64,000 nt of DNA from Comamonadaceae bacterium (lineage in GTDB: Bacteria > Pseudomonadota > Gammaproteobacteria > Burkholderiales > Burkholderiaceae_C), in the NCBI GenBank assembly GCA_027484105.1, contig JAIXUG010000014.1, forward strand, positions 62,001 through 126,000, given 5' to 3'. Made by a program: the position numbers and the translations under genes. Positions within the stretch are counted from its first letter, which is position 1. Every line of letters starts with the position of its first letter. Under the pieces are notes generated by a model. It searched no databases. It was not told where the DNA came from and saw only the letters and a program-made list of their open reading frames with translations. Positions 1,765 through 11,465 of this stretch are shown piece by piece.

Positions 1765-1818
1765 TCAGGGCGACAAGCCCCGCAACTCACGCGCTTGCAA
1801 GATGCGTGAACACGCCAC
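1765..1818 (-). pseudogene. Orphan copy of the 3' end of the glutamate dehydrogenase gene
   Basis: Read on the minus strand, this stretch encodes [17 protein letters not shown] and a stop. The intact glutamate dehydrogenase at 10155-11465 ends [17 protein letters not shown]. Similarity stops abruptly at 1818. No other part of the gene is present here. The fragment lies directly against the stop codon of the Lrp gene and would be the original 3' end if 8.4 kb was inserted near the end of gdhA. Confidence 0.75.
1775..1818. repeat. Left copy of the gdhA-tail direct repeat
   Basis: 44 bp that match 10165-10208 in the same orientation with two differences (1777 and 1786). Positions 1787-1818 are identical over 32 bp. 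The two copies bracket an 8.4 kb segment, in the manner of att sites at the 3' end of a gene. Confidence 0.85.
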
Positions 1819-1874
1819 ACGCCGGCGCGCGAATGCACACCGCATCGGCGCCAGCCGGCGCATGCTGAACGGAT

Positions 1875-2846
1875 TCAGTCGATGGTGGCGCCGGATTCCC
1901 TGACGATCCTGGCCCAGCGGGGCAAGTCGTCACGCACCAGTTGGGCAAACTGCTCGGGTGTGGACTTGTAGGCTTCGCAACCCACACCGGCCAGACGCTC
2001 TTGCACGTCCTTCGAGTCAAGCGCTTTGGAGATTTCGGCATTGAGCTGCTGGATGATCGCCCGTGGGGTTCCTGTTGGCGCAAACACGCCGTACCATGGG
2101 GTGGCGCCAAAGTCCTTGATGGTCTCGCCAATGGTGGGGGCGTCCGGCAGCACGGGCAAGCGCTTGGGGTTGACCACGCCGAGCACCTTCATCCTGCCAG
2201 ACCGGATGAACGCGATCGAGGAGGGCAGGCTCTGCACCGAAACCTGCACTTGTCCAGCCACCAGGTCGGTGGCGGCGGCGGCGGCTCCCTTGTAGGGCAC
2301 ATGGGTGAGGTCGATGCCGGTGGCTTTGCCCAGCATTTCGCCGATCAGGTGGTTGAGGGTGCCGTTGCCCGCCGATCCGATGTTGATCTTGCCCGGCTGC
2401 TGTTTGGCCAATGCGACCAGTTCGGCGGTGTTCCTGGCGGGAAAACTCGGATGGGCCACCAGCACATAGCCGGCGGTGGCCACGCTGCCCACCGGTTCGA
2501 AATCTTTCACCGGATCAAAGCCGGTGCTCTTGTAGAGCGCTGGATTGATGACCATGGCACTGTCGGCGGTCAGCAGCAGGGTGTAGCCATCTGGCCGAGT
2601 GCGGGCGGCCGCTGCGGTGCCCACATTGCCCCCGGCGCCCGTGCGGTTTTCCACCACGAAAGACTGCCCGGTTTGTTCGGTGAGTCTTTGGGCAATCACC
2701 CGCGCGATCGTGTCGTTGGCCCCACCGGCCGCCTGAGGCACGATGATGGTGACCGGCTTGGCCGGGAATTTCTCTTGTGCCAGCGCGGGCGCGCCAACAG
2801 CCAGCGACAGGCCCAGGGCCAGAAGGGTTCTGCGTTGCGGGAACAT
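1875..2846 (-). CDS. Bug family tripartite tricarboxylate-type periplasmic binding protein
   Basis: 323 residues. The signal peptide MFPQRRTLLALGLSLAVGAP ends near ALAQ, so the protein is periplasmic. The mature start EKFPAKPVTIIVPQAAGGAND is the hallmark first strand and ligand loop of the Bug fold, and later blocks such as VPYKGAAAAATDLVAGQVQ and MKVLGVVNPKR also fit. Such proteins bind organic acids or related small molecules for tripartite carriers or for sensing. No TctA/TctB membrane partner is nearby, so it is an orphan, as is common in Burkholderiales. It has the same orientation as the asparaginase/ABC operon but is separated from it by about 200 bases, so it may have its own promoter. 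The ligand is unknown. Confidence 0.92.
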   Translation of the reverse strand: MFPQRRTLLALGLSLAVGAPALAQEKFPAKPVTIIVPQAAGGANDTIARVIAQRLTEQTGQSFVVENRTGAGGNVGTAAAARTRPDGYTLLLTADSAMVINPALYKSTGFDPVKDFEPVGSVATAGYVLVAHPSFPARNTAELVALAKQQPGKINIGSAGNGTLNHLIGEMLGKATGIDLTHVPYKGAAAAATDLVAGQVQVSVQSLPSSIAFIRSGRMKVLGVVNPKRLPVLPDAPTIGETIKDFGATPWYGVFAPTGTPRAIIQQLNAEISKALDSKDVQERLAGVGCEAYKSTPEQFAQLVRDDLPRWARIVRESGATID

Positions 2847-3043
2847 GGTGAGTCTCCTTGTTAAAAAATCAGCATCCAGTAGAAAGGGGTGGATTCATAT
2901 GAGATTTTGGAGTGTTGTAGTTGATCAGCAAACATGTTTTTGACTCTCACGTTGTTTACATGTATCGCCGTGCACGGCTTGTTTTGCACCTGTGGCCTTC
3001 GGGTGAACCCGCGGAATCCTTAATGTAGAGCCGAGGGTGCAGG
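2847..3043. other. AT-rich gap between the asparaginase and Bug genes
   Basis: I see no gene here. It contains a 10-bp palindrome AAACATGTTT at 2930-2939 and, next to the Bug start, an AAGGAG-like ribosome site (read on the minus strand). It probably carries the Bug promoter. Confidence 0.4.
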
Positions 3044-9300: not shown

Positions 9301-9303
9301 TCC

Positions 9304-10134
9304 ATGGCGTTCACAACCACCAACTTTGTGAACAATCTCAAATTGGCTTGCAGTTATTTCCCCTCGGTATCTGAGGTCTCCCGCAAGGTTGGCATTAACC
9401 GTCAGCAGTTCATGCGCTACCTGGCTGGGGAGTCATTTCCATCGCGACACAATTTGCGTAAACTTTGCGATTTGTTTGGTGTGGATGAATATGAGTTGCT
9501 CATGCCTGTGCACCAGTTTCGCAATTTGTTGAGGCTGAAAAAAGAGCGGGACGATGGCTTGGTCAAGTTGCCGCCCTTGTTGCCACCATTGTTGCAGTTG
9601 GTTCAGCGCCAACGTGCAGAGCTGAGCAAAAATCTGGGTTATTTTCATGTTTACTACTTGTCCGCATCCAGACCGGGATCTGTGCTCAAGTCGCTGATCC
9701 ATATTTATGAGTGGCAAGAGTTCACGCTGTACAAAAGAATAGAGCGCCTGAAAACACCGGGGAGCAAAGGTCAGGCCGAGTTGTACAAGTACTCCGGTAT
9801 GGTTGGCGTGGTGGGCGACAGGCTCCATCTGATTGACCAGGAAACGCTTACGGGCAGCGAGTTAACACATACGATTCTCTACCCCAGTTACCGTAATCGG
9901 ATCACATACCTGACAGGCCTGACTGTTGGCGTATCAGGCAACGATGCCCATCGCCCTTCTGCTTCACGCATTGCATTGGAATATGCTGGTAACACGGTGA
10001 ACCTTCGTCGCGCTATTGCCGACTGTGGGCTGTTCACGCCCGAAGATCCTGCTGTACCTTTAATTGTTTCCCGATACCTGTGTCAGCCTGGTGCAGTGGA
10101 TGGGGTGGGTCCGTTGCAGGCCTTGCCCTTGTGA
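9304..10134 (+). CDS. XRE-type helix-turn-helix regulator with C-terminal effector-like domain
   Basis: 276 residues from ATG 9304 (MAFTTTNFVNNLK); an upstream in-frame ATG at 9229 would add 25 residues that look unlike the family. The DNA-binding part spans residues about 15-60: SEVSRKVGINRQQFMRYLAG followed by PSRHNLRKLCDLFGVDEYEL. The remaining 200 residues (for example YKYSGMVGVVGDRLHLIDQ) have no domain I can name and may sense a ligand. It is transcribed away from the importer/asparaginase operon across a gap with repeated half-sites, so it is the likely local regulator. Its stop lies 20 bases from the convergent glutamate dehydrogenase stop. Confidence 0.85.
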   Translation: MAFTTTNFVNNLKLACSYFPSVSEVSRKVGINRQQFMRYLAGESFPSRHNLRKLCDLFGVDEYELLMPVHQFRNLLRLKKERDDGLVKLPPLLPPLLQLVQRQRAELSKNLGYFHVYYLSASRPGSVLKSLIHIYEWQEFTLYKRIERLKTPGSKGQAELYKYSGMVGVVGDRLHLIDQETLTGSELTHTILYPSYRNRITYLTGLTVGVSGNDAHRPSASRIALEYAGNTVNLRRAIADCGLFTPEDPAVPLIVSRYLCQPGAVDGVGPLQALPL

Positions 10135-10154
10135 CCGCTTGCCGTAGTCTGTAT

Positions 10155-11465
10155 TCAAGGATATAAACCCCGCAATTCACGCGCTTGCAAGATGCGTGAA
10201 CACGCCACGATGAAGGTGGCCGTGCGCAGGCTGACCCGGTGATCGTGTGCGACCTGCCAGATGGCCGCAAAAGCCTCGCGCATGATGCGCACCAATCGGG
10301 CGTTGATTTCTTCTTCGCTCCAGAAGAAGCTTGAGAAATCCTGAACCCATTCAAAGTAACTGACCGTCACACCGCCAGCATTGGCGATCACATCGGGCAC
10401 CACCAAAATGCCGCGCTCGTGCAGGATGTCGTCGGCCTCGGGGGTGGTGGGACCGTTGGCGCCTTCGATTACCATGCGGGCCTTGATTTGGTCAGCGTTG
10501 GTGGCGGTGATTTGCTCTTCCAGCGCGGCAGGAATCAGGATGTCGCAATCGACCCCCCAGAATTGCGCATCCGGCAAGGTTTCAGCAGCGGCAAAGTCTT
10601 TGACGCTGCCGTGTTCGCCGACATGTTTCAGCAGGGCGGGCACATCGAGTCCGGAAGCCTTGTAAACCGTGCCACCATGATCTTGCACTGCGATGACCGT
10701 GGCGCCGGTTTGGGCAAACAATTTGGCGGCGATGCCACCCACGTTGCCAAAGCCCTGCACGGCAATTTTGGCTTTGGTGATGTCCAGACCGATGTGCTGT
10801 GCGGCCTCTTGGCCCACGGTGAAGACGCCGCGGCCAGTGGCTTCGCGTCGGCCCAGCGAACCACCCAAGGCAATGGGTTTACCGGTCACTACGCCTGAGG
10901 CGGTGGCGCCTTCGTTCATGGAATAGGTGTCCATCATCCAGGCCATGATTTGCTCGTTGGTGTTCACGTCCGGCGCGGGGATGTCTTTGGTGGGGCCGAT
11001 GATGATGCCGATCTCGCTGGTGTAGCGCCGGGTCAAGCGTTCCAGTTCGCCGCGTGACAGGATTTTGGGGTCCACGCGTATGCCGCCCTTGGCTCCGCCA
11101 AAAGGCAGGTTGACGGCCGCGTTTTTCACCGACATCCAGGCCGACAGTGCCATGACCTCGGACAGCGTCACATGCTGGTGAAAGCGCACGCCGCCTTTGC
11201 CGGGTCCACGGCTGGTGTTGTGTTGCACGCGGTAGCCCTCAAAGTGGGCCATGGTGCCGTTGTCCAGTTCAATCGGCACGTCTACGATCAGGGCGCGTTT
11301 GGGGCGTTTGAGGGTTTCGACCCAGCGCGACAGCGATCCCAGATAGGGCGTGACGCGTTCGACCTGTTGCAGGTAAATACCCCAAGGGCCCAGGTGTTCT
11401 GCGTTCAAGTAAGAGGGCAAAACATGCGTGCTTTTGGCAGCATGGCTTGCGTTGGTATTCGACAT
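10155..11465 (-). CDS. gdhA: Glu/Leu/Phe/Val family dehydrogenase (glutamate dehydrogenase)
   Basis: 436 residues, full length for hexameric glutamate dehydrogenases of the GudB/RocG type. It has the substrate site [13 protein letters not shown], the catalytic region [14 protein letters not shown] with its Lys, and the dinucleotide-binding motif VQGFGNVGG. It interconverts glutamate and 2-oxoglutarate plus ammonia. It is cytoplasmic and monocistronic by position. Its last 14 or so codons are duplicated at 1765-1818, suggesting the 3' end was exchanged or rebuilt when the neighbouring 8.4 kb segment arrived. The coding frame is intact despite this. Confidence 0.95.
10165..10208. repeat. Right copy of the gdhA-tail direct repeat
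   Basis: Partner of 1775-1818, same orientation, offset 8390 bases. This copy lies inside the functional glutamate dehydrogenase gene and encodes its C-terminal codons. The identical core is 10177-10208. Confidence 0.85.

Follow-up and report, generated by a model that had tools for sequence, protein, structure and literature searches.

A proposed layered, repeatedly rearranged slot between lrp and mnmG in Limnohabitans, holding an orphan glutamate dehydrogenase gene end and an asparaginase homologue that has Asn in place of Asp90

Based on comparison of alleles across the genus, we propose that the interval between lrp and mnmG in a 64,000-nucleotide stretch of DNA from a freshwater Comamonadaceae bacterium (assembly GCA_027484105.1, contig JAIXUG010000014.1, positions 62,001 to 126,000; here the window) is a gene-turnover locus, in which the window carries layers stacked by displacement via recombination through the conserved flanks, a reading to which we assign a probability of roughly 60%. 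The layers are an orphan 3' end of the glutamate dehydrogenase gene gdhA beside lrp, a gene for a TctC-type periplasmic solute-binding protein (bug), and a block of asparaginase, importer and regulator genes with an intact gdhA. The genus was taken as Limnohabitans by means of strain Bal53 (genome G028). What emerges is a slot of a known kind in an unusual form, built in layers and rearranged repeatedly; the displacement mechanism and the order of the layers we infer.

The gdhA end is directly repeated at both borders of the segment. The two copies, at 1765-1818 and 10155-10208 on the minus strand, were defined by repeat search and alignment and are identical in 48 of 54 bases (89%), with all six mismatches within the first 22 bases and the final 32 bp exact. 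The right copy is the functional end of an intact 436-residue gdhA (10155-11465, minus strand; Pfam ELFV_dehydrog). The left copy, read on the minus strand, encodes the gdhA C-terminus, and its stop codon (1765-1767) abuts that of lrp (1762-1764); it scores 83 against gdhA tails, the best of 500 dinucleotide shuffles of the left spacer reaching 27. The left boundary of the variable interval, lrp (1297-1764, plus strand), encodes an Lrp/AsnC family regulator (Pfam AsnC_trans_reg and helix-turn-helix (HTH) profiles; NCBIfam Lrp-like, below the equivalog cut-off). A sequence-only reading of this DNA had described a 44-bp repeat, 32 bp of it exact, with the real gdhA end on the right and an orphan tail abutting the lrp stop on the left; all of this is borne out, the repeat extending to 54 bp. 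A 201-bp probe spanning the left copy matched these two sites only in its own genome (E ≤ 0.001).

The orphan tail is a property of bug alleles, since it is present in all seven lrp-bug spacers and absent from those others tested that hold no further gdhA remains. The bug gene (1875-2846, minus strand; Pfam TctC) occupies the same place in G018, G010, G007, G477, G041a and G498, and these six carry decayed homologous tails. When the gdhA-tail similarity of each spacer was compared with 500 shuffles, no shuffle matched it in the window, G498, G010, G007, G477 or G041a, and one did in G018; a remnant such as displacement would leave stands beside the new gene at all seven bug loci. Five of the seven alleles have neither importer nor gdhA. 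By the same test the tail is missing on the other side of bug (0/6 spacers), from the 25-bp lrp-asparaginase spacer of Bal53 and from 14 of the 16 lrp-mnmG spacers, the closest being that of G484 (68 of 500 shuffles); the lrp-mnmG spacers of G496 and G046 hold a recognisable tail with other gdhA pseudogene remains and no intact gdhA. The bug-tail join probably arose once, because its position within the gdhA end is roughly constant wherever it can be read (the window, G010, G041a, G007 and, less clearly, G018); the tails of G498 and G477 are too short to place it. The two tails of the window are much more alike than orphan and gdhA tails are in other genomes and, as orphan tails elsewhere have decayed, the sequences suggest that this near-identity likely stems from a later event, either gene conversion or an exchange with a gdhA allele. 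As side observations, G477 has a C-terminal lrp fragment (about 7922-8011 after turning) beside its orphan tail and bug, and in G508 lrp is followed by a different TctC-type protein, 42% identical to that of the window.

The asparaginase, importer and regulator genes constitute a separate layer at about 3034-10134, not all on one strand, its extent being drawn from the Bal53 block and from relic edges (the left edge from the alignment of the G495 relic). Domain profiles agree with the earlier list of a Bug protein, an importer, an asparaginase and a dedicated regulator. On the minus strand lie the asparaginase homologue (3044-4069), a fused two-domain ATPase of a peptide-type ATP-binding cassette (ABC) importer (4080-5729; Pfam ABC_tran twice, oligo_HPY), permeases of the DppC/OppC type (5726-6553; BPD_transp_1, OppC_N) and the DppB/OppB type (6561-7529; BPD_transp_1), and the family-5 periplasmic binding protein of the importer (7587-9176; SBP_bac_5). 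For the divergent Cro/C1-type HTH regulator of 280 residues (9292-10134, plus strand) the GTG at 9292 is the most likely start, given that the extension upstream of it contains a stop codon in Bal53; the predicted structure of the regulator has a mean predicted local distance difference test score of 46, with residues 85-280 below 50.

In Bal53 the six genes of the block, arranged as in the window, stand between lrp and gdhA; bug, the orphan tail and a second gdhA tail bounding the block are all missing there. Searches with the regulator found it in 3 of 90 genus genomes, namely the window's, Bal53 and, as a fragment, G495, in which the end of the asparaginase gene (from window position ~3034) is fused to the end of the regulator gene. 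A second relic, consisting of roughly 100 nt from the end of the regulator gene, lies between bug and gdhA in G498, with a break point unlike that of G495. G+C content at third codon positions (GC3) separates the block from bug as well, being 0.58-0.63 from asparaginase to regulator as compared to 0.78 in bug, 0.72 in gdhA and 0.79 in mnmG. The AT-richness is therefore limited to part of the segment, in keeping with the earlier remark that parts of it are AT-richer. Recent exchange or shared import of the block between the window and Bal53 was rejected because its synonymous divergence (dS, 0.86-2.42) exceeds that of lrp, gdhA and mnmG (0.66-0.75). No donor emerged: regulator homologues were detected in 3 of 398 other genomes of the family (32-41%) and in 2 of 398 other genomes of the order, one of them marginal, and homologues of the binding protein comprise one at 62% (G393) and others at no more than 44%. 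G393, from another genus of the family, encodes a peptide-type importer in the gene order of the window (locus positions 3-4584; about 54-66% identical), on a contig that ends before the neighbouring gene, where an asparaginase might stand.

Across the genus, lrp was found in 53 of 90 genomes including the window's; the other 37, in a genus where many genomes are incomplete, gave no match to this DNA probe. Allele states were assigned to 51 lrp loci in 50 genomes besides the window, G041 contributing two, with G501 and G510 left out since their lrp lies at a contig edge. Twenty-five loci are lrp-gdhA, 16 lrp-mnmG without intact gdhA and five lrp-bug-mnmG; single loci show lrp-bug-gdhA (G498), block and gdhA (Bal53) and block relic and gdhA (G495), and two are uninformative. 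In G508 and G509 lrp is present with neither gdhA nor mnmG within the stretch examined, and in G477 and the G017 contig used lrp is reduced to a fragment. Hence, at least six alternative states with different gene sets occur between the conserved flanks, and the empty site that the sequence-only reading anticipated, where lrp and gdhA converge with no recognised feature between them, is the state of the 25 lrp-gdhA loci.

These states are scattered over the rpoB tree, on which the fewest changes are three for bug, three for block or relic and nine for gdhA (33 of 36 rows with known locus, G509 scored as lacking gdhA). The window, Bal53 and G495 fall on three branches, and the sister of Bal53 is G488 (99/95), whose locus has gdhA alone. 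The single-gene trees made for lrp, mnmG, gdhA and bug have weak resolution, and no direction of transfer was read from them; the window gdhA groups with those of G498, G002 and G487 (support 100/100). No second gdhA match above 40% identity was found in the 80 searched relatives having gdhA. G041 has lrp loci on contigs C198 and C219, one with bug and the other without gdhA or bug, and is possibly a mixed genome bin. G021 has spacers of ~350 bp between lrp and gdhA and ~900 bp between gdhA and mnmG with unrecognised content.

We propose that the window arose as follows. The 54-bp left tail would be the end of a gdhA formerly beside lrp. bug would then have overrun that gdhA, joining within its 3' end and leaving the last 54 bp, and the block with the intact gdhA would form a third layer between bug and mnmG. 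Incoming DNA may have recombined homologously with one of the conserved flanks and joined illegitimately at its other end, with older material consequently left toward the lrp side. The repeats may later permit clean excision to the lrp-gdhA state of G002 and G487; their direct junction, with stops abutting as in the window, is compatible both with an ancestral state and with clean excision between the repeats.

Such a process has a precedent in the type VI secretion system clusters of Vibrio cholerae, for which a displacement model in which incoming modules leave 3' genes behind has been put forward (PMC5361080). Like the locus described here, those clusters have variable genes at one fixed position, old 3' remains pushed to one side and alleles in a scattered distribution, and they require no specific integration site. 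The genes left behind there are complete immunity genes presumed to be under selection, whereas here the leftover is a 54-bp gene end of no evident use and the modules concern nutrients. Homology-facilitated illegitimate recombination, which pairs one homologous anchor with one illegitimate join (PMC3240628), would yield the junction observed inside gdhA, of which the end state alone is seen here.

Several observations count against displacement. No intermediate has been caught, as the sole tail-bug-gdhA allele, G498, itself carries a block relic, and that relic is short (50% over 30 residues, E 1e-4). If the decayed tails elsewhere are a guide, the exact run of 32 bp appears to be younger than the bug join and calls for an additional event. 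The higher dS of the block could reflect relaxed codon usage. G498, G010, G041, G002 and others, in which rpoB was not found whole, are missing from the rpoB tree, and in the bug tree, with its seven rows, a single branch is well supported. Furthermore, the polarity could be the opposite: the main rival to displacement holds that an early member of the genus had a complete lrp-tail-bug-block-gdhA-mnmG locus, formed once, and that all other states are deletions, the clean lrp-gdhA junctions arising in part by recombination between tails. Three observations agree with such an old locus: the window-Bal53 block dS is not below flank dS, G495 and G498 keep remains of blocks since deleted, and the locus of G488, the rpoB sister of Bal53, has gdhA and nothing else. 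However, tail and bug would have to be removed in both Bal53 and G495, and no block relic was found in the scanned lrp-gdhA spacers, i.e. those longer than 60 bp, except that of G495. We regard descent from an old complete locus as possible, at clearly lower probability than displacement.

Integrative elements that replace the 3' end of a gene leave that end repeated, with one functional and one orphan copy. The window has this appearance, with the gene end directly repeated on both sides and the orphan copy on the far side, and the sequence-only reading took the segment for one 8.4 kb insert that had duplicated the tail. That interpretation, i.e. a single element that integrated in a site-specific manner at the gdhA 3' end and brought a replacement end, did not survive comparison with relatives, in which the layers occur separately: the Bal53 block has a single tail and no bug, and Bug alleles at five loci carry the tail without block or gdhA. 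In addition, bug and block differ in GC3, and domain profiles reveal no integrase or recombinase among the seven genes between the two tails, as the earlier reading had itself remarked. We consider a single integrative element, and with it a single 8.4 kb island, improbable.

Least probable of all is a tandem gdhA duplication with the block between the copies and the left copy then lost but for its tail; the earlier alternative of duplication followed by loss came nearer the mark in that the left tail does look like the end of an earlier gdhA that met lrp in a junction such as that of G002 and G487. It leaves unexplained the bug joined to a tail in six other genomes, five of these loci without gdhA, and none of the 80 searched relatives with gdhA yielded a second match above 40% identity.

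On the right, the variable interval is bounded by mnmG (gidA; 11753-13723, plus strand; TIGR00136 above cut-off), and beyond lrp on the left lies an indolepyruvate ferredoxin oxidoreductase-like gene. No tRNA was found in window positions 1-20000, and no Rfam family matched at gathering scores in positions 1-14000.

The part of the locus most worth an experiment is the asparaginase clade. The window protein resembles class 1 type II L-asparaginases over its whole length (TIGR00520, 376 bits, cut-off 314.3). In E. coli AnsB the catalytic residues are Thr, Tyr, Thr, Asp and Lys (PMC8256714), and four of the five are kept at the positions matched to Thr12, Tyr25, Thr89 and Lys162, while the Asp90 position is occupied by Asn105. 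Positions were matched to AnsB numbering by motif, alongside an alignment with three other solved asparaginases. Because the Asp is replaced, we call the protein a homologue and do not claim asparaginase activity.

In a set of 84 sequences (the best 80 of 194 genome-contig matches, the window protein and three genus paralogues), column 105 is Asn in five and Asp in 79, and it is the sole listed column uniform within both groups; the Thr24 and Lys177 columns are near-uniform. Asp is also present at this position in all 29 further order-level homologues compared (up to 51%). The five Asn sequences, from the window, Bal53, Aquincola tertiaricarbonis and two uncultured bins, form one clade in a quick tree (Shimodaira-Hasegawa-like approximate likelihood ratio support 99), and at columns 35, 146, 261 and 299 the five have a residue in common that is absent from all 79 Asp sequences. 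A regulator homologue adjoins the asparaginase gene in four of the five, none being detected beside the fifth; in one bin (locus L142, 7034-7654) it apparently lacks the HTH part. Unlike known class 1 enzymes, the window protein thus combines Asn at the Asp90 position with an adjoining regulator of its own and, in Limnohabitans, a peptide-type importer. Asn105 may reflect an altered substrate or a weakened enzyme. A literature search found no paper on a Limnohabitans asparaginase, a D90N asparaginase or this locus.

As to function, the importer may take in a peptide-like compound, from which the asparaginase-fold amidohydrolase with its altered active site would free ammonia or aspartate, the neighbouring gdhA could fix the released ammonia, and the divergent regulator would control the block. 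More tentatively, the Asp90-to-Asn clade, with its other clade-specific positions and dedicated regulator family, might represent a small undescribed pathway hydrolysing a substrate other than free asparagine, e.g. an amide that is N-blocked or bound within a peptide, which in Limnohabitans would come in through the peptide-type importer. The lrp-mnmG interval, in turn, might be a stratified slot where one nutrient module after another is displaced by the next and the gene ends left behind can be dated; we hold this combined picture to be doubtful.

In conclusion, what resembles an integration scar, a repeated gene end, can instead have been left by gene replacements stacked on one another, as only comparison with relatives brings to light, and the same slot in Limnohabitans exchanges glutamate dehydrogenase, a Bug protein and an importer block. 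Asp90 is described as invariant in L-asparaginases (PMC6667453); the Asn90 clade would contradict that claim and would offer a natural test of the role of this residue.

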